A stretch of 64,000 nt of DNA from Desulfovibrio aminophilus (GTDB taxonomy: Bacteria > Desulfobacterota > Desulfovibrionia > Desulfovibrionales > Desulfovibrionaceae). The translations under genes were made by a program, and so were the position numbers. The stretch lies in assembly GCF_023660105.1 (NCBI RefSeq), contig NZ_JAMHGA010000017.1:1-64000 (forward strand). The letters run 5' to 3'. Below, one piece after another: positions 28,880-50,030 of this stretch (position 1 is its first letter; each line of letters opens with the position of its first letter). The notes beneath the pieces were generated by a model. It was given only the letters and a program-made list of their open reading frames with translations. It did not search any database and was not told the origin of the DNA.

Positions 28880-30175
28880 ATGAACACCGAGTCCGCGGCC
28901 GATCTTTCCCGGCTTCTCGCCCAATTCTGGGCCTGGCTCCAGGCGAACCTCCTGTCCTGGGCCGGGGTGGTCCAGCTGGCGGCCCTGCTGGCCGCGCTGT
29001 GCGTGTCCTGGGTGCTCTGGGGCCTGGCGCGCGGCAGGGTGCGGGCCTGGCTCTCGCGCCCCATTCCCGCCGGGCTGGCGGTCCTGGCCAACAACGCCGG
29101 GCGCTCGGTCTGGCCGCTGTTCTTCGTGGTCTGCTGCGGCGCTGTCGGCGCGGCCCTGGACGGCCTGCACCGGCCGCACCAGCTCACCGACATGGCCGTG
29201 TCCCTGACCCTGGCCTGGGTCATCATCCGCCTGTTCACCTCGCTCATCGAAAGCCGCTTTTGGGCCCGCATGGTGGCCGCCATCGTCTGGTCCCTGGCCG
29301 TGCTGGACGCCATCGGGCTGCTCAAGCCCGCCACGGCCTTCCTGGACTCCCTGGCCGTGACCCTGGGCGAGGCGCGGATTTCGCTCTGGGGCGTGCTCAA
29401 GGCCGTGGTGGTGCTCGTGGTGGCCCTGGAGGCCGCGGTGCTCGTGGTGCGTTTCGTGGAGAGCCGGGCGTCCCGTTCCTCAGAGATGTCGCCGTCGCTG
29501 CGGGTGCTGGTGGTCAAGGGCGCGCGCATCGGGCTCTACGCCCTGGCCGGGCTCATCGCCCTGTCGAGCATGGGCGTGAACCTCACCAGCTTGGCGGTTG
29601 TCGGCGGCGCGCTCGGCGTGGGCATCGGCTTCGGGCTTCAGAAAATCTTCTCCAACCTCGTGTCCGGCGTGATCCTGCTCCTGGACAAGTCCATCAAGCC
29701 CGGGGACATCATCGAGATCGGCGGCAACGTGGGCGAGATTCAGACCCTGAGCACGCGCTACGCCCTGCTGCGCACCCTGGGCGGCAAGGAAATCCTCGTG
29801 CCCAACGAGGACCTCATCAGCGGCCAGGTCATCAACTGGACGCGCACGGACCGCAAGTTGTGGGTTTCGGTGCCCGTGGGCGTGGCCTACGACGCGGACG
29901 TGCCGCTGGCCATGCGGCTCATGGTCGAGGCGGCCCGGTCAGTGGACCGCATCCTCAAGGACCCGGAGCCCTCGGCGCACCTCACGGACTTCGGGGACAA
30001 CAGCGTGAACCTGGCCGTGGGGTTCTGGATCAAGGACCCGGAGAACGGGCTCATGGGACTCAAGACGGACGTGAACCTGGCCATCTGGGAACGCTTCCTG
30101 GCCAACAAGATCGAGATTCCCTTCCCCCAGCGCGACATCCACGTGAAGTCCCTGCCCGAAGGGTGGGGGAAGTAA
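28880..30175 (+). CDS. mscS: Small-conductance mechanosensitive channel, MscS family
   Basis: A 431-residue channel with about five N-terminal helices, then the MscS pore and beta domain. The pore helix is ASLAVVGGALGVGIGFGLQKI, an Ala/Gly-rich TM3 pattern. The cytosolic beta segment GDIIEIGGNVGEIQTLSTRY and the late LVPNEDLISGQVINWT are diagnostic. It opens under osmotic downshock to release solutes. GGAG precedes ATG 28880; the preceding gene is 9 bp away, so the two are co-transcribed. Confidence 0.93.
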   Translation: MNTESAADLSRLLAQFWAWLQANLLSWAGVVQLAALLAALCVSWVLWGLARGRVRAWLSRPIPAGLAVLANNAGRSVWPLFFVVCCGAVGAALDGLHRPHQLTDMAVSLTLAWVIIRLFTSLIESRFWARMVAAIVWSLAVLDAIGLLKPATAFLDSLAVTLGEARISLWGVLKAVVVLVVALEAAVLVVRFVESRASRSSEMSPSLRVLVVKGARIGLYALAGLIALSSMGVNLTSLAVVGGALGVGIGFGLQKIFSNLVSGVILLLDKSIKPGDIIEIGGNVGEIQTLSTRYALLRTLGGKEILVPNEDLISGQVINWTRTDRKLWVSVPVGVAYDADVPLAMRLMVEAARSVDRILKDPEPSAHLTDFGDNSVNLAVGFWIKDPENGLMGLKTDVNLAIWERFLANKIEIPFPQRDIHVKSLPEGWGK

Positions 30176-30201
30176 GAATAATGTGAACAGGAGGGGTTCA
30201 G

Positions 30202-30900
30202 ATGACAATGCGAAAGTTGTCTATTCTTCTTTCTGTCTGGGTTTTCTTGCTATCAGCTTGTTCGCGGACATCATACTGGGTTAAGCCGGGAGGGAGTCAG
30301 CCTGAGTTTTATGCGACCCAGGCGCAGTGCCACAACCAAGCTTATTTTCTCCCGCAAACTCCAAAGATAGTATCAAACCCTAGCTATTTAGTTACAACAA
30401 CAACGCTGAATGGGACCGCATATTCAACAGTCCAGCCATATAAAAGTCCATACCAAAGTATGGCAGACGCATTGAGTAGTGCTTCTGCTGATTTCGCTGA
30501 TATCGCACGGCGAGAAAATTTTATTTAAAACTGTATGATTTCTAATGGTTGGACAAAAGTTGAGGAGTCTGCGCTATCTGTAACCGTTAAGGCCTATGCG
30601 GTGCGGAAGCCTGATAATGTGAATTATTCAGGGTCTGTAACTGGTCATATTGATAGAATTGGAACCATACGAGTGGTTGGTGATCATAATGAAATATGCG
30701 TCGGAACATTTCGCTATACATCTGTTCGCGGAGGAGACGGAATAATTCGTTGCGATGATGGAAAGAGCGCGAATATCAGTTTTGTTTCGGTATCCAATAC
30801 GAGTGGATATGGAGTTGGGACAAGCGATCAAGGCGATAGAGTGCTTTTTGTTTATGGAATGGACCGAGAAGAAGGGCGACAATATTTAACCGCAAACTGA
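30202..30900 (+). pseudogene. AT-rich lipoprotein gene interrupted by an in-frame TAA
   Basis: Two open frames (30202-30528 and 30535-30900) lie in the same reading frame, parted by one TAA at 30526-30528. Read through, they give a 232-residue lipoprotein: signal LSILLSVWVFLLSAC with lipobox, then a Gln/Tyr-rich part. Across the stop the text runs ARRENFI-stop-NCMISNGW; many small exported proteins have a F-x-x-C-M-x-x-x-G-W motif exactly there, which argues for one broken gene rather than two. The second frame has no ribosome-binding site. The C-terminal part has two cysteines (EICVGTF and IIRCDDG). Codon use is far more AT-rich than in the neighbours, so it is probably acquired. AGGAGGGG precedes ATG 30202. 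Confidence 0.6.
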
Positions 30901-30942
30901 TATGCGGGGGATGAGTGGTTTGAATTGGTAACTGTGAGTTTT

Positions 30943-32262
30943 TTAGAATCCATACCTCACGAACTCTTTCTCCCGCTTGTTCACGAACTGGATATACCTG
31001 AATTCGCCCTTCAGTTGTGACTCTTCCAGAATTTTATAGCCCAGGTCGCGGCATTCGTCGCAGGCGTGGAACGGGATTTCCAGGCCCAGGCAGAGCGGGT
31101 TGTTGGTCGAGCGCGACTCGATCTTCAACAGGCCCCGGCAGTTGCCGCAGAGGCGCAGCATCTCGGTCTGGGCCTCGGTGATCTCGTCCGTGTCGTAATA
31201 GATGTTTTTGCGCCGCACGAACCACTTGTCCGCGAACACGCCGTCCTTGGGCTCCTTGGGCGGGTTGAAGTAGAGTCCGCCCGCGATCTCGCAGACCTCC
31301 GCGATGTAGTCCGTGACCTTGCGCGGCTGGCGCAGGCGCTCCGGGTCGAAGCCCGGCTCGCGCACCCCGCTGGAGTCCAGCCCGGCCATGGCCAGGCAGA
31401 TGCCCAGGTTCACGTAGGGCAGCGCGCCCTGGATGGCGTAGCCGCCCTCCAGCACCGCGAGGTGCGGGGCGAGCCTGCGGTTCAGTTCGGCGTAGCCCTG
31501 GGCCGTGATGTTCATGTTCGTGATCGGGTCCGAGAAATGGTTGTCCTGCCCGGCGGAATTGACGATGATCTCGGGCTGGAAGTCCGCCAGGATGGGCAGC
31601 ACGACCCGGTCCAGGGCCATGAGCAGGCCCTCGTCCGAGGCGCCCGGGGGCAGGGGGATGTTGATGGTCCGGCCCAGGGCCGTGGGGCCGCCGCACTCCT
31701 TGGGAAAGCCCGTACCGGGGTAAAGCGTCCGGCCGTCCTGGTGCAGGGAGATGAAGAGTACGTCCGGGTCGTGCCAGTAGATGTCCTGGGTGCCGTCGCC
31801 GTGGTGGCAGTCCGTGTCCACCACCGCGATGCGCCGCACGCCGTAATGCTCCCGCAGCCATTCGATCATCACGGCTTCGATGTTGATGTTGCAGAAGCCG
31901 CGCGAGCCGTGGACCACCTTCATGGCGTGGTGGCCCGGGGGCCGCACCAGGGCGAAGGCCCGGTCGTGGACCTTGTCCATGACGAGCTTCGCGGCCGTGA
32001 TCGCGCCTCCGGCGGAGATGAGGTGCGAACGCGTGGTCACGGCGTCCACCTCCGGGAAGCAGAAGTGGGCCCGCTCCACGTCCTCCACCGAGGCCACGCC
32101 GGGCTTGTATTCCCGGATGCCCTCGATGTCGAAGAGCCCTTCCTCCTTGAGCTGGTCCTGGGTGTAGAGCAGGCGCTCCTCGCGCTCCGGGTGGGTGGGC
32201 GAGATGCTCCAGTCGAAGGCCGGGAAGAAGATGATCCCCAGGGAGTTGACGGCTTTCAGCAT
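30943..32262 (-). CDS. Histone-deacetylase-family hydrolase with C-terminal zinc-ribbon-like tail
   Basis: A 439-residue AcuC/HDAC-fold zinc hydrolase. The catalytic blocks are RPPGHHAM, VVDTDCHHGDGTQDIYW (zinc Asp and His), SLHQDGRTLYPGTG and NSAGQDNHFSDP. Bacterial members deacetylate acetyl-lysine, polyamines or acetoin-related substrates. Residues after about 330 form an unusual extension with CGNC and CDEC pairs, suggesting a zinc ribbon. It begins one base after the hyuA-like gene stops, so the two are co-translated and may act on one substrate. Confidence 0.88.
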   Translation of the reverse strand: MLKAVNSLGIIFFPAFDWSISPTHPEREERLLYTQDQLKEEGLFDIEGIREYKPGVASVEDVERAHFCFPEVDAVTTRSHLISAGGAITAAKLVMDKVHDRAFALVRPPGHHAMKVVHGSRGFCNINIEAVMIEWLREHYGVRRIAVVDTDCHHGDGTQDIYWHDPDVLFISLHQDGRTLYPGTGFPKECGGPTALGRTINIPLPPGASDEGLLMALDRVVLPILADFQPEIIVNSAGQDNHFSDPITNMNITAQGYAELNRRLAPHLAVLEGGYAIQGALPYVNLGICLAMAGLDSSGVREPGFDPERLRQPRKVTDYIAEVCEIAGGLYFNPPKEPKDGVFADKWFVRRKNIYYDTDEITEAQTEMLRLCGNCRGLLKIESRSTNNPLCLGLEIPFHACDECRDLGYKILEESQLKGEFRYIQFVNKREKEFVRYGF

Positions 32263-41980: not shown

Positions 41981-42064
41981 CGTGTGGGACGGGGGGAAGA
42001 AAAAGGCGGGGCCTGGGCGGTATTGCGTAGAAGAAGCAAAAACGACCTTTTTTAGATGAGTTAC

Positions 42065-42094
42065 AAAAGCCCCGTCAACCTGGCGGGGCTTTTT
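42065..42094 (+). terminator. Rho-independent terminator
   Basis: AAAAGCCCCG (42065-42074) pairs with CGGGGCTTTT (42084-42093), with more T after it. The A-run/T-run symmetry makes it bidirectional. It ends both the glnD side and the toxin-antitoxin operon that comes from the right. Confidence 0.85.
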
Positions 42095-42190
42095 GCTGGT
42101 ATTATGGCGTTACTCTCAACCTCGTGTTCTGGCTGGATATGCACGCCGGTGGGTAGCGCCCCCAGCGGTAAAAATCCCTCGGGGGAGAGG

Positions 42191-42511
42191 TCAAACCCGC
42201 ACGGCGTCAAGACCCTTATGCTTTACGATGAACAGGAGGCGCAGGGCGGGGCCGCCGGGCTTTTTTACGCCACGTTCCCAATCAGAAACAAGATTCTTGG
42301 AAACGTTCAGGTAGCGGGCAAAGACCGGCTGCGACAGACGCTCTCTTTCACGAATTGCCCGGATGTCTTCCGGTGCCATGGCTTCGGCCGGGACAAGGCA
42401 GGATTCGTCGAACTCTTTCATGGTCATCTTGTCTATCAGGCCGAGCTTATGGAGATCTTCCATGGTTTCATGGATTGCGGCGCTAGCTCCACTCTTATAG
42501 TTCTTGGACAT
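42191..42511 (-). CDS. Helix-turn-helix antitoxin/regulator (HigA/NadS type)
   Basis: A 106-residue protein with a Cro/C1-type helix-turn-helix (AIRERERLSQPVFARYLNVS, then NLVSDWERG). It is second after a RelE-type toxin gene, 12 bp apart, which is the HigBA order. It should neutralise the toxin and repress the operon by the palindromes at 42910-42950. GAGAGGAG precedes the ATG. Confidence 0.85.
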   Translation of the reverse strand: MSKNYKSGASAAIHETMEDLHKLGLIDKMTMKEFDESCLVPAEAMAPEDIRAIRERERLSQPVFARYLNVSKNLVSDWERGVKKPGGPALRLLFIVKHKGLDAVRV

Positions 42512-42523
42512 GACTACTCCTCT

Positions 42524-42889
42524 CTATGCTATTTCCACAAAAGTGCCCTCGCTGATCGCCTTTTCCAGGTCGCTCTCGGTCAAGGCGAACAGAGACTTCG
42601 CCATTTTCTTGAAGTCCTTCTCCTCCCTCTTGTCAATATTCGGCTGATCCGATTTGGCGAAACCGTACACGAAAAAGGAGCGGTCTCCTCGCCGGTAGCA
42701 TACGAGCACCCGGAATCCCCCCGACCTCCCGGCTCCCGACCGCGCTACTCGTTGCTTGTAAACCCCGCCACCGAGATCGGCGTCAACCTGTCCTTTTTCA
42801 AGCCGATCCACCGCATCTTTCAACGATTCATCGGCGATACCTTCTTTGCCTGCAAACCTGGCGAATGGTTTAGTTTTAAGTATTCTCAT
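42524..42889 (-). CDS. RelE/HigB-2-type toxin
   Basis: A 121-residue basic protein of the RelE_2 type (YKQRVARSGAGRSGGFRVLV, VYGFAKSDQPNIDKREEKDF). The core Arg, Tyr and Lys residues expected of ribosome-dependent RNases are present. It is followed by its antitoxin gene. AAAGG precedes the ATG. Confidence 0.83.
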   Translation of the reverse strand: MRILKTKPFARFAGKEGIADESLKDAVDRLEKGQVDADLGGGVYKQRVARSGAGRSGGFRVLVCYRRGDRSFFVYGFAKSDQPNIDKREEKDFKKMAKSLFALTESDLEKAISEGTFVEIA

Positions 42890-42909
42890 GCTGCCTTTCT
42901 GGCGTGTGG

Positions 42910-42950
42910 CACACTTGGTGTGACCCTTAAATATATCACACCAGGTGTGA
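42910..42950. promoter_or_regulatory. Two palindromic operators of the toxin-antitoxin operon
   Basis: CACACTTGGTGTG (42910-42922) and TCACACCAGGTGTGA (42936-42950), with centres 27 bp apart. A TATATTTAA box for the minus strand lies between them, so occupancy would block the promoter. Confidence 0.6.
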
Positions 42951-43123
42951 TGTCAATCAGCACTCTCCTCTGCCGCTGGAAGCCAAGTGGATAATCTCCC
43001 CTTTAAGCGCCGGCCTTGCTTTCAAGCACACCGTAGTCGCATCCAGCGAGTCAAAAGTCTCTCGGGCATATTGAGCGGCCAAACCATATTGACATCCTCG
43101 CCATTTCTGGCGATACTTGGCTG
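42951..43123. other. Region between the toxin operon and the methyltransferase gene
   Basis: Base composition falls here from GC-rich to mixed. I see no gene and no clear promoter. It marks the left boundary of the acquired block. Confidence 0.4.
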
Positions 43124-43792
43124 ATGGGATACGCAGGCGGCAAAGGACGCATCTACCAGCGACTACTCAATATGATGCCACCGCACACCACCTATGTGGA
43201 GACACATCTCGGCGGTGGCGCAGTGATGCGGAACAAGCGTCCAGCCGTACGACAAATCGGAATCGAAATAGACCCGGTCGTTTTCAAACGTTGGTCCGAA
43301 GCAAAAAAAACGCCTTGTGAACTCATTTGTGGTGATGCCGTAGCGTGGCTTGAACAATCCGATCTAGAGCTATCCGCCTTGATTTATGCTGACCCTCCCT
43401 ATGTTCGGGCAACTCGTCGCCGGTGCCGTGTCTACAGGTATGACTATACGGATGTGGATCATATTAGGTTGTTGGAATGCCTGAAGCGGCAGAAGTGCAT
43501 GGTCATGGTATCCGGGTATCGCAATGATATTTATGATGAAATGCTGAATGGATGGCAGCGTGCTTCGTTTATGGCAATGACCCACGCTGGAATGCGCGAG
43601 GAATTTGTCTGGTTCAACTTTAATCCACCTCAACAGCTACATGACGCACGACACCTTGGGGACGGATACCGCCAGCGTGAGATTATCAAACGACGCATGG
43701 CGCGATTGCGGCGGCGAGTTTCGGATCTGTCGCGCATAGAGCAGTTTTATTTGCTGGAGTGGTTACGGGCGGAGCTGGGGGGAATCGCATGA
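43124..43792 (+). CDS. D12-class N6-adenine DNA methyltransferase
   Basis: A 222-residue Dam-like enzyme. The AdoMet site is MGYAGGKGRIYQRLL with ETHLGGGAVMRNKR, and the catalytic motif IV is YADPPYVRAT. It is shorter than E. coli Dam (278) and lacks an obvious target-recognition insert of that size. The next gene, an OGG-like glycosylase, starts inside its stop codon (ATGA), so the pair is coupled. The target sequence cannot be predicted. No restriction nuclease is adjacent. Confidence 0.88.
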   Translation: MGYAGGKGRIYQRLLNMMPPHTTYVETHLGGGAVMRNKRPAVRQIGIEIDPVVFKRWSEAKKTPCELICGDAVAWLEQSDLELSALIYADPPYVRATRRRCRVYRYDYTDVDHIRLLECLKRQKCMVMVSGYRNDIYDEMLNGWQRASFMAMTHAGMREEFVWFNFNPPQQLHDARHLGDGYRQREIIKRRMARLRRRVSDLSRIEQFYLLEWLRAELGGIA

Positions 43793-44616
43793 GCAGAGTG
43801 ATCGGTATTGTCATCAATGAGCAGATTGTTAAAAGAATCATGCCCTGCTCCGAGGAGCAAGTATTACCAGGTATTGAGTGGGGTGATCCCTGGCGCCTAT
43901 TCACGCCTGCATATTGGCTGGTTCAAGCTTGGATGGCCGGCTTGGATACCAAGCCATTGACCAAGCATCGTGCCTGCAACGGGGTGGTCGACGAATTGGT
44001 ATTCTGTCTACTTGGTGGATATGGAATCACAGCAGAAATGGCCATGGCGGCGTATGAACAGTGCAGGAGAGCCGGTATCATTGAAGCAAGGGAGACGCGT
44101 CAAGAAGTTTGGGCGGACACTTTGAATACACCACTCACAATCGATGGGCGATATATACGATATCGTTATCCTAATCAAAAAGCAAAATACATCGCTTTGG
44201 CGATGAGAATTGTCCATAATGAGCCTCTTCACCTAGAGAGCGGGCTGATGCTCCGAGATCAATTACTCCACATACCGGGCGTCGGATACAAAACGGCCAG
44301 TTGGGTGGCGCGCAACGTCTTGGACTGCGATGATGTCGCGATCCTCGACATCCACATCATCAGGGCTGGCAACCTCTGTGGATTATTTACGAAAAATGAT
44401 AGGGTGGAGAAAGACTATCGTAGTATGGAGTGCCGTTTTTTGTCGTTCTGCCAAGCGTTAGGTATGCGTCCAGCCGTTCTTGACTGTGTTATTTGGGATG
44501 GTATGCGTGAAGCAGGCAATCTTCCAATCCGTGCGCTGAATCAAAAATGTTCAACCTTGGCAAGTAAAAAGAAGAGCGGTCGTGAAAGATCACATCGGTT
44601 CCGGCTTGAAATGTGA
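43789..44616 (+). CDS. HhH-GPD DNA glycosylase, OGG-like (Cap11-like)
   Basis: A 275-residue base-excision enzyme. The helix-hairpin-helix is LLHIPGVGYKTASWVARN; its Lys sits where OGG1-type bifunctional glycosylase/lyases have their Schiff-base lysine, and the catalytic Asp is in VAILDIHIIRAG. It should cut a damaged or modified purine and nick the DNA. OGG-like proteins are accessory genes (cap11) of type IV CBASS, together with QueC-like proteins. Here queC is next, convergent with no gap at all: stops at 44614-44616 and 44617-44619. Confidence 0.82.
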   Translation: MSRVIGIVINEQIVKRIMPCSEEQVLPGIEWGDPWRLFTPAYWLVQAWMAGLDTKPLTKHRACNGVVDELVFCLLGGYGITAEMAMAAYEQCRRAGIIEARETRQEVWADTLNTPLTIDGRYIRYRYPNQKAKYIALAMRIVHNEPLHLESGLMLRDQLLHIPGVGYKTASWVARNVLDCDDVAILDIHIIRAGNLCGLFTKNDRVEKDYRSMECRFLSFCQALGMRPAVLDCVIWDGMREAGNLPIRALNQKCSTLASKKKSGRERSHRFRLEM

Positions 44617-45210
44617 TTAGCGGTTCCATCCTATTGCTGCCATGACTTCGGAGTGCTTGCGACAGCCGGGGCACTGTCCGCACGCAAGTACACCAGCATG
44701 ACAGGAATGTGCCCACCCAAGAACGGCTGGCGTAACCCCAGACATGTTTATAAGTTCCGTTGTTGTATAATATAATGCCGGAGCTTCTACTTCAATCGCG
44801 CCTTCTTGTGCCCGCACCATTTCCGCTATGCTTCGCACAAATTCAGGATGTCCATCTGCATGGCGCCTGTCCGAACGCACCGTACCTATAAGGATTTTAG
44901 AGTAGCCGAAGCGCAATGCATACATCGCACCAATGGTGATAAGAAGTTGGTTGCGGAATGGCCAAAATTCGGCATGTGGCGATGCATGGATTGGTTCAGA
45001 CCCAGCCATTACTCCAGAACCAAGGCTGTTAATTGGAAGAGCGACTGTATCGTGCTTCAAATCAAGCGCAGCACATACTTTACTAGATGCTGTGAACTCA
45101 GCATTCGCCGAGCGCTGTCCGTAATCTATTGTCAAACAACAGGCAGGGTGTCGCCATGCAGCTATGGATATAGAGTCTATACCTCCGGAGAGCAGTAAAA
45201 GTTCAGACAT
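44617..45210 (-). CDS. queC: QueC-like 7-cyano-7-deazaguanine synthase
   Basis: A 197-residue PP-loop ATPase. The nucleotide site is LLLSGGIDSISIAAW, and the zinc site is SCHAGVLACGQCPGCRKH (C-x7-C-x2-C-x2-C). Canonical QueC turns 7-carboxy-7-deazaguanine to preQ0 by way of the 7-amido form. It is somewhat shorter than housekeeping QueC (about 230). Its start overlaps the end of the PfkB-NDT gene by 8 bp. In type IV CBASS a QueC-like protein (Cap9) is reported to join the deazaguanine to a protein N terminus; that activity is a real option here. Confidence 0.88.
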   Translation of the reverse strand: MSELLLLSGGIDSISIAAWRHPACCLTIDYGQRSANAEFTASSKVCAALDLKHDTVALPINSLGSGVMAGSEPIHASPHAEFWPFRNQLLITIGAMYALRFGYSKILIGTVRSDRRHADGHPEFVRSIAEMVRAQEGAIEVEAPALYYTTTELINMSGVTPAVLGWAHSCHAGVLACGQCPGCRKHSEVMAAIGWNR

Positions 45211-46438
45211 CTTTCATCAACTGCCAGCACGCTGCATAGACACCAGTAGCGAAGTCATTGGTTATTCCGCACCCCGATCCAAGCAACATGGTGAGAGGCT
45301 GTTCCCCAAGAGTCTCAGCCACCCCGATGACAGGAATTTCTTTGGCGCGAGCGTAACCGACCTCAAAAATAGTTCCCGAATCGAGCCCGTCAAGAACTGC
45401 AAATACCAATTCGCTTTTCTCCAATCCATCAAGATCACTTGGCGCCACCTCGTTAGGGGCACCTCTTCCCACATCATGAACGGGCGAGAAAACCTTGAAC
45501 CCCATATCTTGGAATGCTAATCGCGCCTCATCAACCAGCCATTGCTGAGCAGTTGAAAAGAACGGACCCGCAAGATATATCTGCCCTTGCGGGATTGGAC
45601 GGGCCGATGGCAGGGTCTTGTGGACGACGGCCGCCGAGGCTTCTGCCCTGATGCATTCCATCTGCTCGGGCGGAAATGCCTCCGACCTTGACTCGACATA
45701 AGCACTCACCATCCGAGATGCGAACCATGCTGATTCAAGTGGGGTTTTCTTTTCAGTCATCCAGGCATGGGCGTATGCTGCTGAGAAGACATCGCCGGAA
45801 CCGATCTTCCAAACCCTTTTTGATGGGAAGGCGTAGACCCATTGCTGGCTGACTACGGTTGCTACGAGGGCGCCCTGCGGGCCGCACTTGATGACCACAG
45901 CTACGCAGGAAGGCGTGGAAAGTAACTGTGTCGCCGCATCAGCGGGCGTGTTTGCTCCCGAGATTGCACGAGCCTCTGACCAGGACGCAACAATAGCCAG
46001 TTCATCAGCGGACGATCCATTGTCGTCGAAAGGTTTCGACCGGAACCCATCTTGGGGATCGTAGACGGCTCGCTTCGCAGTGACAGTCGGGCGACCTTCA
46101 ATCATTCCGTAAACGAGTGCGTCATTGGCAGAAATATCGCATAAGGGAATAGCGTCTGCCCGAGGCGGGTAAATATCAGGTTTCGCTAGAGGATGGCGGT
46201 AACGAAACCAGATGTCTGTATCGCTTTCGCATGCCCGCAAGACAATGCCTTTCCTGGCGGCAATCCGCCTGAATTCAGGCGCCAGACGAGGGCCGACTAC
46301 GGCGTTTAACTCGATTTGATTTCCGAGCCCGCTCAAAATGCAAGCGGCCCGAACACCGCTGCCGCGATATACTCTGGACTCGGGGAAGCAACATTCTTCT
46401 CCGTATGCTCCGCCCACAACCGTGATGTGGGGACTCAT
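45203..46438 (-). CDS. Fusion of PfkB-type kinase and nucleoside 2-deoxyribosyltransferase
   Basis: A 411-residue two-domain protein. Residues 1-265 have a PfkB/ribokinase fold, with the C-terminal catalytic motif KIGSGDVFSAAYAHAWM; the N-terminal sugar motif is altered (RGSGVRAACILSG). Residues 290-405 are a nucleoside 2-deoxyribosyltransferase/DNDT fold: IYLAGPFFSTAQQW, FAVLDGLDSGTIFEVGYA with the catalytic Glu. The second half would cleave or exchange an N-glycosidic bond of a nucleotide. The substrate could be a 7-deazaguanine nucleoside, but that is inference. The ATG at 46438 overlaps the preceding stop (ATGA). Confidence 0.85.
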   Translation of the reverse strand: MSPHITVVGGAYGEECCFPESRVYRGSGVRAACILSGLGNQIELNAVVGPRLAPEFRRIAARKGIVLRACESDTDIWFRYRHPLAKPDIYPPRADAIPLCDISANDALVYGMIEGRPTVTAKRAVYDPQDGFRSKPFDDNGSSADELAIVASWSEARAISGANTPADAATQLLSTPSCVAVVIKCGPQGALVATVVSQQWVYAFPSKRVWKIGSGDVFSAAYAHAWMTEKKTPLESAWFASRMVSAYVESRSEAFPPEQMECIRAEASAAVVHKTLPSARPIPQGQIYLAGPFFSTAQQWLVDEARLAFQDMGFKVFSPVHDVGRGAPNEVAPSDLDGLEKSELVFAVLDGLDSGTIFEVGYARAKEIPVIGVAETLGEQPLTMLLGSGCGITNDFATGVYAACWQLMKDV

Positions 46439-46749
46439 GCCCCCTCCACCCGCACAAGGCATTGACCGCCATCGGTTTCGACCACGACCGCTTGGTATTC
46501 AAACCCCATAAGCAAGCAGTCGAGCAATTGCGCCACCCGGGCACCCGTTAACGCTCCGACCAACTCGCCCTTGCGGAGGACGATGACGCCCTGTCCGCCT
46601 TCCATTACTTGAACAGAAAGAAGTTCACCAGGGACGAGATCTTCAAGGGCATCTGGTTGAGGCGAATTGACGGAAGCATTGAATTTAATATTCTCGCATG
46701 GATTCGCTGGCGCTGTTGGGGCATAGCCACCTGATCCCGATCCGCCCAT
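46435..46749 (-). CDS. Small Gly-rich N-terminus protein, candidate acceptor of QueC-type conjugation
   Basis: A 104-residue protein of unknown family. I chose ATG 46749 because AGGAGGAGA lies at ideal spacing; the longer frame to 46785 has no such site. After Met removal it would begin Gly-Gly-Ser-Gly-Ser-Gly-Gly-Tyr, flexible and exposed. A beta-rich body follows (LLSVQVMEGGQGVIVLRKGE, GFEYQAVVVETDGGQCLV). A free N-terminal glycine is what QueC-like Cap9 enzymes use in type IV CBASS as I understand it, and such a gene directly next to queC is striking. It is the first gene of the three-gene operon. Confidence 0.7.
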   Translation of the reverse strand: MGGSGSGGYAPTAPANPCENIKFNASVNSPQPDALEDLVPGELLSVQVMEGGQGVIVLRKGELVGALTGARVAQLLDCLLMGFEYQAVVVETDGGQCLVRVEGA

Positions 46750-47129
46750 ATTTCTCCTCCTAGGTTTGGCCCGCCGTAACGGCATGTTTGACCATCATAT
46801 TTCTATAAATAATGCACTATATATTTAGTTTTTGCAAGATCGAACCACTTTTGCCGCCTAGTACAAAAAAATAGTTTGAATTTCAGATCGGTGCTGACGG
46901 GCCCATCGTCGATAATTGAGATATACGAATGTTATCCATTAAGTCTCAAGTTGAAATTGATGTATGAGCAGCATAAGGTTGAAAAGGCCGTGCTCGATAT
47001 CCCCTTATAGAGGAGTCAGAAATCGCCAAGGCATCCAATATTCTAAGATAACACGACCTCGAATTGCCTTGCGTGAGAGCGCGTACACTTCAACGCAGTA
47101 GTGGTAACGGGAAAAATTGGGGGGAAGTA
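46750..47129. promoter_or_regulatory. Divergent AT-rich promoter region between the small Gly-rich gene and queE
   Basis: About 380 bp, clearly AT-rich, without a supported gene. For the minus strand there is TTGCAA (46832-46837) with a 17-bp spacer to CATTAT (complement of 46809-46814), giving a leader of about 53 bases. No promoter for queE could be fixed. A cis element for defence-type control could lie here. Confidence 0.4.
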
Positions 47130-47768
47130 TTGAGTCTCATCATCTGCGAGATATTTCAAAGCATCCAGGGCGAGTCCAGTCATGCCGGTTGGCCATGTGT
47201 GTTCGTGCGTGTTTCTGGTTGTAACTTGCGCTGCCGCTGGTGCGACACCACTTACGCCTACGAAGGCGGCACCCAGATGAGCGCAGAGGATGTCGTGGAG
47301 CAAATTGACTCTTTCGGTGCTTGTCGCATTGAATTTACCGGTGGTGAGCCGTTGCTACAGTCAGAAGTAGTGCTACTCGCCAGTCAATTGGCCTCTTCGG
47401 GAAGAACAGTGCTCGTTGAGACGAATGGTAGTCTAGACATAAGTGTACTCGATCCGAAGGTGATCGCAATTATGGACATAAAAGGTCCGTCGAGCGGCAT
47501 GGCCGAGCATGTGGACTTAACAAACCTATTGCGCTTACGAGGGCATGACGAAGTCAAGTTCGTCATTGGGCATCGTGACGACTATGCACACATGCTGAAA
47601 ATTTTGCCACACATTGACACTCGTCGCAACATTGTCAATGTCTCACCACTTTTCAACGAAATGAGCACTGCTGACCTGGCGAAGTGGATTCTGGAGGACA
47701 GGCTAGAGCTACGTCTGAACCTTCAGCAACACAAGTATATCTGGAGTCCTGACAAGCGAGGCGTGTAA
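47130..47768 (+). CDS. queE: 7-carboxy-7-deazaguanine synthase QueE
   Basis: A 212-residue radical-SAM enzyme that makes 7-carboxy-7-deazaguanine from 6-carboxy-tetrahydropterin. The cluster motif is GCNLRCRWCDTTYAYEGG, and the typical FQSIQGESSHAGWP and EFTGGEPLLQ are present. The start is a TTG at 47130, preceded by GGGGGGAAG; longer frames run upstream without a ribosome-binding site. It is separate from queC and opposite to it, 690 bp upstream of queD. Confidence 0.88.
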   Translation: MSLIICEIFQSIQGESSHAGWPCVFVRVSGCNLRCRWCDTTYAYEGGTQMSAEDVVEQIDSFGACRIEFTGGEPLLQSEVVLLASQLASSGRTVLVETNGSLDISVLDPKVIAIMDIKGPSSGMAEHVDLTNLLRLRGHDEVKFVIGHRDDYAHMLKILPHIDTRRNIVNVSPLFNEMSTADLAKWILEDRLELRLNLQQHKYIWSPDKRGV

Positions 47769-47857
47769 TATTCAAATTAACCATTTATTATATTACATAT
47801 AAAGCTAAGTGTGATTAATATCAAATAGATATCTGTATTATAGATTGTGGGGGTGAT

Positions 47858-48214
47858 ATGGAAATTCAAATTTGTTTGAGTTTTGATGCAGCGCACCGCT
47901 TACCTTGTGTTCCAAGTGAACATAAGTGTGCCCGCCTTCACGGGCATACATTTCATGTGGAGTTTTTTATTTCTGGTGAAGTCTCGCCAAAATATGGATG
48001 GGTTGCAGACTTTTCCGACATTAAGAAGGTCCTTAGATCCCATGTCGAAGTATTAGACCATGCGTATCTGAATGACATCGATGGATTGATAAATCCGACG
48101 TGTGAAAACATTGCTGTATGGCTTTGGCGCAGGATAAAGTTTGAGATTCAAGGTCTTTCTAAAATCACAGTGAAGGAATCGTCAACTTCCGCAGCAACCT
48201 ATACGGGAATATAG
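47858..48214 (+). CDS. queD: 6-carboxy-tetrahydropterin synthase QueD
   Basis: A 118-residue enzyme that converts dihydroneopterin triphosphate to 6-carboxy-tetrahydropterin. Zinc histidines are in FDAAHRLPCV and ARLHGHTFHVEF; the catalytic Cys lies in HKCARLHGH. GGGGG precedes ATG 47858. With QueE and QueC it gives preQ0 from FolE product; FolE is not in the window. It follows queE after 89 bp of AT-rich DNA. Confidence 0.9.
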   Translation: MEIQICLSFDAAHRLPCVPSEHKCARLHGHTFHVEFFISGEVSPKYGWVADFSDIKKVLRSHVEVLDHAYLNDIDGLINPTCENIAVWLWRRIKFEIQGLSKITVKESSTSAATYTGI

Positions 48215-48446
48215 AATTGCCCCCAATAGGATGCCAAGAAGGGCTGTGGCAGAACCAATTAATCTTAACAACCTGCGCCAGCTCGAAATATTTCAACTAA
48301 TCGTTATTCAAAACGATTTTTATTTTAGGGCGTGATTTTTTGTTCGCCTACAACGTAGCATCTCAACCTCTCGTTTTAGCTTGACTTTTTCGAAAAATTC
48401 TGACATATGATAACCGGTTTGAGGGCATGAACCGGAGGCGTTTTTG
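48215..48446. other. Region between queD and the transposase
   Basis: Non-coding. It should hold the left end of the insertion sequence. Only an 8-base inverted match, TTGACTTT near 48382 and its complement near 49963, was seen, too short to define terminal repeats. Confidence 0.3.
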
Positions 48447-49481
48447 GTGGGAACCCCGTTCCTTTTGCAGGCTATCGCCAGGTCCGATTGGACGGACGAC
48501 GTGCACACGATGCCCGAGGAGGAACTGTATGCTTTCCTCTGCGGCCTACGCTGGCCGACGACCAACGGCAGCCCGTTCTGCCCCAGATGCGGAAGCGTGG
48601 ATTTGTACCCCAACCGCACTCGCCGGCAGTGGAAGTGCAAGGACTGCGGCACCATATTCTCCCTGACCAGCGGCACCGTCCTGCATGGCATGAAGCTGCC
48701 CCTGCGCAAGCTGGTTCTGGCTGTCCTCACCTATGTCAACGCAGTCAAGGGACTGAGCGCCCTTCAGTTGGCGCGGCAAATCAATGTCCAGCACAAGACG
48801 GCCTTCATTCTCCTACACAAGCTGCGTGGGGCACTGTTGCAGGGTCGGCCGAAGACGAAGATGAGGGGCGTGGTCCAGATCGACGGTGCCTACATCATGG
48901 GTTCCGTCAGAAAGGTCAACCGGATTTCGGATCCGAAGCAGGCGCAGTGGCAGGAGGCCAGACGGGAGCGCGCCAAGCAGAAGAAGCATTGCATCCTCGT
49001 ACTCCGGCAGGCCGACAGGCTGGACAAGCCGTCCAGGACCCTGACGACGGTCATCAAGGAGGAGGCCAAGGGGAACATCCTGCCCTTCGCCCTGGACTGG
49101 GTGGACCGGACTGCGACCATCGTCTCCGACCAGCATCCGGCCTATGCCGAGCTTGCCGGTTTTTACAAGACCGAGGTCGTCAACCACGCCAAGAACTTCC
49201 GCGGGGAAAAGCCGATTGAGCACATCAATCTGGCCGAATCCTATTTCTCACGGTTCCGCCGTTGCTCTTGGGGACAGGTCCACAAGATGAGTCTGCGGCA
49301 CCTGGCGGCATACGCCAACGAAATCGCCTACCGCGAGGATACCCGGAGAATGCCGAACGGTGACATCGCCCAGGATGTCTTGAGCAAGGCGCTGTGCGGG
49401 ACAAAGCTGGACGAATGGACCTGCTATTCCTTCCGGGGCCGAAAGTCGTCCAGGGACAGAACCTTGCGGCTTGCGGCCTGA
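48447..49481 (+). mobile_element. IS1595-family (ISXO2-like) transposase
   Basis: A 344-residue DDE transposase. The N-terminal zinc ribbon is CPRCGSVDLYPN then WKCKDCGTIFS. The DDE core begins VQIDGAYIMG, continues IVSDQHPAY, and closes in the HINLAESYFSRFRR (N-x7-Y region of this family) and a Glu-bearing helix. GGAGG precedes GTG 48447. GC content is high, like the host and unlike the que block, so it is not from the same source. It marks the right side of the island. Confidence 0.85.
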
Positions 49482-49861
49482 TTTGCGTTCCGGATCCGCC
49501 AGTATTCCACCCGATCTTCCTTGAAACTCTCCACGAGTTTTTGCCGCCGCATGTACATGAGGCAGTGATGGGCCTTGCGGCGCCACCTTTCCTCTTGTCT
49601 GCCGATGCGGGCGCAGAACGCATCGCAGATGTCCTCCCGGGACATGGGCTTGCCGGCTTCGCGGAGGATGTTCAGGATGGGCCGCATGATGGTTCCGGGC
49701 GCCCTGGGTTCTTTGCGATGGACCGGGCGGATGGTGGATGCGTCGAATTCGGGAGCGATCAGCCCCATGACTAGGTCCAGTGCCCGGATCTGACGTCGTA
49801 AAAGTCGGGATTGAGACCCGCTGGGCTCGTTTTGGAGCCGCCAGAGAAGCGTGGCCTTCAT
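49424..49861 (-). CDS. Small winged-helix-like protein, possible IS passenger or resident gene
   Basis: A 145-residue protein with a possible winged helix (IMRPILNILREAGKPMSRED, then YMRRQKLVESFKEDRVEYW). It overlaps the transposase 3' end by 58 bp on the other strand. IS1595 elements can carry passenger genes, so it may belong to the element. A longer frame runs to 49969, but it would cross the hairpin at 49882-49904, so the ATG at 49861 is preferred; no strong ribosome-binding site is seen. Confidence 0.5.
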   Translation of the reverse strand: MKATLLWRLQNEPSGSQSRLLRRQIRALDLVMGLIAPEFDASTIRPVHRKEPRAPGTIMRPILNILREAGKPMSREDICDAFCARIGRQEERWRRKAHHCLMYMRRQKLVESFKEDRVEYWRIRNANQAASRKVLSLDDFRPRKE

Positions 49862-49881
49862 CTGGGCGACATGAAAAATGG

Positions 49882-49910
49882 AGCGGGGGACCTTGTCCCC
49901 CGCTATTTTT
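49882..49910. terminator. Perfect 10-bp hairpin terminator, bidirectional
   Basis: AGCGGGGGAC (49882-49891) and GTCCCCCGCT (49895-49904) with a CTT loop, then ATTTTT on the plus strand. On the minus strand CCATTTTT follows. It can end both the transposase transcript and htpG. Confidence 0.8.
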
Positions 49911-50030
49911 CTATCCGGCATCCTCGACCTTCTAGTCGACTTTGCGAGGAGATTCCAGCATAAAGTCAAAGAGGATCGGCAAGAGAGTTTTTGCTTTTTC
50001 TACGCAATGCCGGCCTGGGCCCCGCCTTTT

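Follow-up and report, generated by a model that had tools for sequence, protein, structure and literature searches.

A QueC-family ligase beside a small glycine-tailed protein: a candidate protein-deazaguanylation system in a rare mobile gene cassette

Introduction

A 64,000-nucleotide stretch of the Desulfovibrio aminophilus genome (contig NZ_JAMHGA010000017.1, positions 1 to 64,000; hereafter the window) contains, within an inserted island, a locus centred on a gene of the QueC family of ATP-dependent ligases. Three of its genes, encoding the ligase (QueC4), a single-frame fusion of a PfkB kinase with a nucleoside 2-deoxyribosyltransferase (PN) and a small protein with a glycine-rich N-terminal tail (SM), form a conserved cassette that is usually accompanied by a gene for an OGG-like glycosylase (OGG) and that constitutes a real, rare and patchily distributed system. 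We propose, with a probability of roughly 0.6, that QueC4 joins a 7-deazaguanine to the N-terminus of SM in an anti-phage system, of which QueC4 and SM are probably the working core. An earlier note on this DNA had suggested a QueC-centred system for defence or nucleobase conjugation, and the conservation of the cassette, the tail of SM and the Cap9-like model of the ligase lend that suggestion support.

Protein deazaguanylation was reported in 2025 for one system, with a second inferred (PMC11996544); published statements here and below come from portions of the papers cited. The pairing of QueC with PN has already been published (PMC13329287), and no description of SM, or of the gene set beyond that pairing, was seen among the listings returned by searches of open-licence PMC papers.

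Conservation and distribution of the cassette

Similarity to PN gathered 103 loci. Besides the window they comprise 16 loci on plasmids, 80 genome contigs (the best of 282) and six of the 80 viral contigs kept; judging by their listed query range, the other viral contigs matched the deoxyribosyltransferase domain alone. PN is therefore present by construction and its relatives are favoured; a few of the loci are near-copies of one another (L006 and L071 are the same record). Gene presence was counted with profiles built in this analysis, and some loci are cut by contig ends. On this basis SM is found in 102, QueC in 97 and OGG in 89 of the 103 loci, and SM lies directly 5' of PN on the same strand in 102. 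The earlier note had asked whether a larger gene set keeps its order in other genomes. SM and PN keep their order and SM, PN, QueC and OGG recur, whereas the D12-type methylase (33 loci), QueD (two) and QueE (one; the match in L008 is weaker, at 1e-5) are optional. A second SM–PN pair stands near the first in L008, L091, L094 and L109, with QueD and the weak QueE match between the pairs in L008.

A further gene, X, follows QueC in 67 of the 103 loci (for example at 9792-10466 of L082) and is missing from the window, as judged from neighbours within 6 kb. The two members scanned resemble SagB-type peptide (flavin) dehydrogenases (TIGR03605, 1.6e-14 and 3.5e-17, both under the cut-off), which gives the system a likeness to the SagB-type enzymes of clusters for ribosomally synthesized and post-translationally modified peptides; no search for a precursor peptide or a YcaO cyclodehydratase was made.

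The hosts include proteobacteria, myxobacteria, Bacteroidota, one cyanobacterium and haloarchaea. Among 395 genomes of the phylum three carry the cassette, counting that of the window itself, and it occurs in 22 of 5426 Escherichia coli genomes, in 18 of these with a match spanning 80% or more of the query. SM, PN, QueC, OGG and the methylase are all present in the three E. coli loci retrieved, one of the methylase genes being cut by an insertion sequence. A phage-borne metabolic gene was considered and rejected: a PN search of 50,697 phage records returned one record, with the deoxyribosyltransferase part only, and a single-protein PN scan of the viral contigs returned nothing.

The QueC4 ligase

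The structural model of QueC4 (predicted local distance difference test score, pLDDT, 92) is closest to Cap9, the QueC-family ligase of type IV cyclic-oligonucleotide-based anti-phage signalling systems (CBASS), with a Z score of 21.4 over 173 residues, followed by QueC (19.2 and 18.0) and QatC (15.3). A profile search also places Cap9 first, by a small margin (57.9 versus 56.7 bits). Among 94 aligned QueC4 sequences, the guanine-reading Asp and the Arg-Asn pair are kept in all 94 and the zinc-binding Cys residues in 93-94. The YPDC motif of QueC reads HADG in the window, its first and last positions being His in 92 and Gly in 93 of the 94 sequences compared with Tyr and Cys in eight of eight QueC rows; replacement of the Tyr by Ala kills E. 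coli QueC (PMC13329287). In a quick tree the QueC4 sequences cluster together (support 99) and are separate from eight QueC proteins of relatives. A GSGxLxG motif was examined as a link between Cap9 and QueC4 and dropped, since the Pseudanabaena Cap9 is without a clear copy.

QueC4 carries the signature of cluster 4 of PF06508 (Libby et al., 2026; PMC13329287), sharing with it the CH(x)5CxxCxGCxK motif and the PfkB–deoxyribosyltransferase neighbour, both of which are in the window. The published motif is printed as YGQ(x)6E, whereas the window has YGQRSANAE, or Q(x)5E, with the Glu kept in 93 of the 94 sequences; a different way of counting in the paper may account for this. In that work the fusion is reported from about 89% of cluster 4 neighbourhoods, and its statements on cluster 4 give no SM, OGG or SagB-like partner.

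The small protein SM

The starts of SM were set blind, from the ribosome-binding site and start codon alone. In the window the most likely start is the ATG at 46749, with AGGAGG six bases upstream, rather than the upstream ATG of the longer open reading frame, and gives a protein beginning MGGSGSGG. In QueC-containing loci Gly3 is present in 93 of 99 SM starts, and position 2 is occupied by S (74), G (12), T (5), A (4), P (2), H (1) or C (1); no start was found for the SM of L059. The exceptions to Gly3 are L003, L004, L008, L091, L103 and L110, and in L004, L103 and L110 another start would give M-S-G. Under a narrower rule, M-[SGATC]-G, the motif is found in 64 of 92 SM proteins as against 6/108 for PN, 2/99 for QueC, 1/89 for OGG, 0/33 for the methylase and 1/67 for X. 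The N-terminal motif is kept even though the linker between it and the conserved domain at the other end varies from about ten to well over 100 residues. In three haloarchaeal SM proteins (L014, L018 and L215) the tail (MGGGSGG, MCGGGS and MGGGGSS) is followed by two domain copies, with a long acidic linker in L014.

The cyclases of type IV CBASS begin MGGS and QatB begins MGTS; substitution of Gly2 by Asp abolishes defence in both systems, and Met1 is typically cleaved ahead of a small residue (PMC13279940). At the level of sequence, the tail of SM resembles these termini, which QueC-family ligases use in type IV CBASS and Qat. The likeness extends to individual residues in a Vibrio SM, which starts MGGSGGGFS, and the nucleotidyltransferase (CD-NTase) of a type IV CBASS locus (L191), which starts MGGSGGGFF.

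The function published as a proposal for cluster 4 is purine salvage (PMC13329287), in which PN and QueC4 would recycle purine or 7-deazapurine bases or nucleosides, with SM as a regulator or scaffold. Both families fused in PN belong to nucleoside metabolism, and helix-turn-helix neighbours, remarked on by Libby et al., lie within 6 kb in 15 of our 103 loci. Salvage, however, leaves unexplained the presence of SM, the conservation of its extreme N-terminus, the OGG and methylase partners and the patchy, mobile distribution, and we regard it as quite improbable.

For the body of SM, sequence searches found no convincing relative. Weak matches to the GreA/GreB C-terminal domain (one of 25 members, 0.0035), PUA_4 (two members, 0.022) and CBS-domain chains of the PDB (0.016) were not taken. 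The structural model (pLDDT 86, the first 20 residues being low) compares best with lp_0118 (Z score 11.9), followed by the HIRAN domains of HLTF (9.0-9.1), Rad5 (8.0) and HamB of the Hachiman system (7.3); the next other fold scores 5.7. The HIRAN domain of HLTF binds single-stranded DNA and a free 3'-hydroxyl, and that of Rad5 binds single-stranded DNA with no preference for the 3'-hydroxyl (PMC7804152); HLTF is brought to stalled forks by its HIRAN domain (PMC4666394). As modelled, the SM body may thus be HIRAN-like, which is a lead for DNA binding rather than proof.

Base supply and the host queuosine pathway

The earlier note had itself raised the counter-proposal that the que genes are simply the queuosine set of the host, with tgt and queF elsewhere. 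A full-length Tgt (contig C38) and QueA are indeed encoded outside the island, but no QueF was found in the host genome. Clear QueC-family and QueE genes are confined, in the host, to the island, the other QueC match being MnmA-like (named from sequence) and the other QueE matches being two weak radical-SAM hits (best 8.5e-6); a second gene of the PTPS family is present elsewhere. With no QueF and no other clear QueC or QueE in the host, the island que genes cannot complete queuosine. Since QueC4 also lacks the Tyr and Cys of YPDC and the island is missing from two genomes of the same genus, the view that these genes are the queuosine pathway of the host is largely refuted and hardly credible, for all that Tgt and QueA are present and no clear QueC or QueE is encoded elsewhere.

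Strong QueC matches (E < 1e-40) occur in ten of the 39 genomes searched. Neither same-genus genome, one of them 87% complete, yielded a strong match to QueC or QueE. QueD and QueE are thus carried alongside the cassette in a host that seemingly cannot make 7-carboxy-7-deazaguanine (CDG) alone, and they probably supply CDG. In a genome of the same family (G098) the cassette and a distinct QueD–QueE–QueC-family cluster lie on different contigs, the QueE of that cluster being 66% identical to that of the island. On a Roseivivax plasmid (L009) a transporter gene of the VUT family (PF02592; 9501-10040), annotated for queuosine salvage, follows QueC and X and may represent an alternative base supply.

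The sole TGT-family match in the host is the full-length Tgt; neither DpdA nor Cap10 was found. This sets the locus apart from the dpd systems of 7-deazaguanine DNA modification and bears on the possibility of DNA base modification coupled to restriction, in which QueC4 and PN would make a 7-deazaguanine deoxynucleotide for phage or own DNA, OGG would excise it and the methylase would mark self. A deoxyribosyltransferase, a kinase, a DNA glycosylase and a DNA methylase do share one cassette, and a dGTPase, which would release deoxyguanosine, is encoded within 6 kb in 12 of the 103 loci. Beyond the absence of DpdA, however, no methylase match was obtained in 70 of the 103 loci (some of them cut by contig ends), and the tail of SM would be unexplained unless SM carries the base. 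This scheme is considered fairly improbable.

Comparison with known systems

The system shares with type IV CBASS a QueC-family ligase of about 185-200 residues with Q(x)5E, a partner with an MGG-type N-terminus and an adjoining enzyme of a base-exchange family. Cap9 is the closest solved structure to the QueC4 model, with Asp and Arg-Asn kept and Tyr replaced by His. OGG is a further accessory gene of type IV CBASS. The differences are that no CD-NTase or Cap10 was found in the locus, that the partner is small and putatively HIRAN-like, that PN stands in place of Cap10, and that a SagB-like oxidase, methylase or dGTPase is often added in SM–PN–QueC loci. Conversely, the type IV CBASS locus L191 gave no match to SM, PN or OGG; searches for more Cap9 rows for the tree gave no further clear type IV CBASS locus among those fetched.

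The qatABCD system likewise pairs a QueC-family protein with a second protein, and defence depends on the N-terminal MG motif of the latter (PMC13279940). Qat differs in the QatA and QatD families and in QatB, for which no look-alike was found in the locus, and in the N- and C-terminal extensions of QatC and its Thr/Thr in place of Tyr/Asp, neither of which is seen in QueC4.

Variant loci

Four loci on rhizobial plasmids (L017 and L188-L190) combine QueC and OGG with a TIR protein that contains a TGT-like domain, near further TIR genes; no other form of the cassette showed such a domain. The TIR–TGT protein of L017 matches the PADLOC TGT model at 1.8e-22. In this variant the motifs of the deoxyribosyltransferase half of PN are lost, as judged by eye, and a small TIR protein starts MGGG in all four loci. 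L017 was among the loci used to refine the PN, QueC and OGG profiles, and its matches to those are partly by construction. Read from the sequences, the tail has moved to the TIR protein, and the TGT-like domain may take the place of the deoxyribosyltransferase. A Proteus locus (L192), reached with a Cap9 query, has divergent SM (2e-9), PN (7e-24), QueC (2e-22) and OGG (1e-5) proteins, the SM starting MGSTGSG; its last protein has no Pfam family.

In five Bacteroidota loci without QueC (L068, L080, L098, L099 and L102) a PurA-like ligase follows PN in every case (PF00709 in the two scanned). Compared with solved PurA, the nucleotide site is kept and the TTGRxRR stretch, which we take to be the aspartate-binding element, is replaced. 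The best plasmid relative of this ligase (34% identity, L214) has no match to SM, PN, QueC or OGG nearby. SM tails in the QueC-less Bacteroidota are mixed, two being MSKR and others glycine-rich or of unclear start, and a joint loss of tail and QueC, which had been considered, is unsupported.

These loci bear on whether QueC4 modifies the N-terminus of SM with an acid other than CDG. The His-x-Asp-Gly of QueC4 in place of Tyr-Pro-Asp-Cys would fit such a change, as would the replacement of QueC in the five Bacteroidota loci by a PurA-like ligase, whose substrate would be a different purine. The guanine-reading Asp is invariant, however, and the island brings QueD and QueE, the known product of which is CDG, making a different acid distinctly improbable.

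Defence context

The three E. coli copies of the cassette, each with a dGTPase gene, are distributed over a recombinase element (beside helicase and nuclease genes), a prophage and a tRNA-Sec island. The accession of the nuclease from an E. coli copy recurs in a plasmid copy (L011) and scans as OLD-type. In an uncontrolled count of the 12 annotated plasmid loci among L003-L018, a gene of the TIR, multi-ubiquitin, restriction-endonuclease or dGTPase kind lies within about 7 kb in nine. PADLOC returned no match for the SM, PN, X or OGG of this system. By context and analogy, the cassette probably has a role in defence.

Proposed mechanism

In the scheme that we favour, conjugation of 7-deazaguanine to SM, QueD and QueE, encoded in the island here and by the host elsewhere, would make CDG by the known pathway. 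Methionine aminopeptidase would take off Met1 of SM, exposing a small residue, which is Gly in the window and mostly Ser in other loci, at the head of a flexible Gly/Ser tail. QueC4, with ATP, would then activate CDG and couple it to this α-amine rather than to ammonia, in the way that Cap9 treats the MGGS-tailed CD-NTase, a step suggested by the tail, the active site and the model. More speculatively, PN might act on the conjugate at the point where the TGT-like Cap10 sits in type IV CBASS, either reading it or adding deoxyribose and phosphate; the HIRAN-like body of SM could deliver the tag to phage DNA that is single-stranded or has ends, and OGG, which belongs to a DNA glycosylase family, could act at the tagged site or shield the host.

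An extended form of this scheme ends in a protein-linked deoxynucleotide. QueC4 would place 7-deazaguanine on SM, the deoxyribosyltransferase half of PN would add 2-deoxyribose to the base, with a donor perhaps coming from the dGTPase found near some copies, the kinase half would add phosphate, and the HIRAN-like body would bring the product to free phage DNA ends, where OGG acts. The arrangement would be modular, the ligase being QueC or the PurA-like enzyme with its changed aspartate loop and the tagged protein being SM, a TIR protein or a CD-NTase. As a whole this extension is tentative and rather unlikely.

Several observations weigh against conjugation of 7-deazaguanine to SM as part of a defence system. 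In the ligase, His (92/94) stands at the stacking Tyr of QueC and Cap9, and the placement of QueC4 near Cap9 in the quick tree (support 84) depends on one long Cap9 row and carries a long-branch warning. Ser rather than Gly heads most tails, and conjugation to Ser is undocumented in the portions of the deazaguanylation literature cited here; the motif is missing from the SM of L003 and from one copy each in L008 and L091. The resemblance of SM to HIRAN is structural only, with a Pfam HIRAN match in none of 25 members, and the best Foldseek hit, to lp_0118, has an E value of 1.3e-3. QueC is missing from five loci whose flanks are complete and from one cut contig. Among 20 host genomes examined for other loci (20 of 80 loci chosen, one QueE model), no more than 17 gave QueE matches, some of these weak. 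Finally, three of the 12 annotated plasmid loci (L004, L009 and L018) have no counted defence-type neighbour.

The island and its genes

The coordinates of the locus and its flanks are given in Table 1. The seven genes named in the earlier note (D12 methylase, OGG, QueC, the PfkB–deoxyribosyltransferase fusion, the glycine-rich protein, QueE and QueD) are all present and were correctly named, and the AT-richer block that it described is evident, GC being 0.47-0.59 across 42-50 kb against 0.71 and 0.68 in the adjoining kilobases. A further AT-rich kilobase in GC-rich surroundings is located at 30001-31000 of the window (GC 0.468).

In the two same-genus genomes (G001 and G002) the flanks are contiguous within four bases at the island site. 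There glnD and htpG are separated by a terminator-like hairpin, and, judging from these genomes, the island is inserted in its loop. The island ends carry 44-nt inverted repeats (42000-42043 and 49987-50030, 82%), and no recombinase of its own was recognised in the element.

Table 1. Features of the island in the window (positions in nucleotides of the window).
Feature	Position	Strand	Evidence and remarks
Inserted element holding the whole locus	42014-50019		Missing from same-genus genomes G001 and G002
Toxin–antitoxin pair	42191-42889	-	RelE-family toxin (PF06296, 2.8e-47) and helix-turn-helix antitoxin (HTH_3, 2.9e-6); passenger, island left end
D12-type adenine DNA methyltransferase	43124-43792	+	PF02086, 1.3e-8; optional member
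OGG/HhH glycosylase	43789-44616	+	PF22175, 1.8e-17; start picked by eye; near-core member
QueC4, QueC-family ATP-dependent ligase	44617-45210	-	PF06508, 4e-26; Libby cluster 4 signature
PN, PfkB kinase and nucleoside 2-deoxyribosyltransferase fusion	45203-46438	-	PF00294, 1e-8; PF05014, 2e-16; one frame; start picked by eye
SM, small MGGSGSGG-tailed protein with putative HIRAN-like body	46435-46749	-	No family match; proposed conjugation substrate
QueE, CDG synthase	47130-47768	+	TIGR04349, 1.8e-67, under model cut-off; supply gene
QueD, 6-carboxytetrahydropterin (CPH4) synthase	47858-48214	+	PF01242, 1.3e-32; supply gene
IS1595-family transposase	48444-49481	+	PF12762, NF033547; passenger
181-residue open reading frame	49424-49969		No family in Pfam scan; island right end

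The abutting and overlapping gene ends remarked on in the earlier note can be read from the sequence. On the plus strand the methylase stop is overlapped by the OGG ATG at 43789, and on the minus strand the SM stop is overlapped by the PN ATG at 46438 and QueC overlaps PN by 8 nt; QueC and OGG converge, their 3' ends abutting at 44616/44617. QueE and QueD are divergent from SM. The GxGD and GTx[FY]E motifs of PN are invariant across 15 rows.

The reported absence of a CD-NTase and of DpdA also holds: no nucleotidyltransferase family was detected among the 11 island reading frames scanned (the 181-residue frame by Pfam alone), and the TGT family is represented in the host only by the Tgt outside the island. 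No QatA NTPase or QatD TatD nuclease family was seen among the scanned frames. The toxin–antitoxin pair and the insertion sequence, in contrast, do not appear to be parts of the system, as neither was found as a recurrent neighbour when the genes within 6 kb were clustered across the 103 loci.

Implications

The locus points to a third deazaguanylation system, with a minimal substrate protein that likely has a DNA-binding fold in place of a cyclase, and the TIR-protein variant points to a fourth. The presence of a PurA-like ligase where QueC would stand suggests a broader chemistry in which purines are joined to the ends of proteins. An orphan QueC cluster for which purine salvage had been guessed would gain a purpose, and the natural copies in E. 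coli make that purpose testable.

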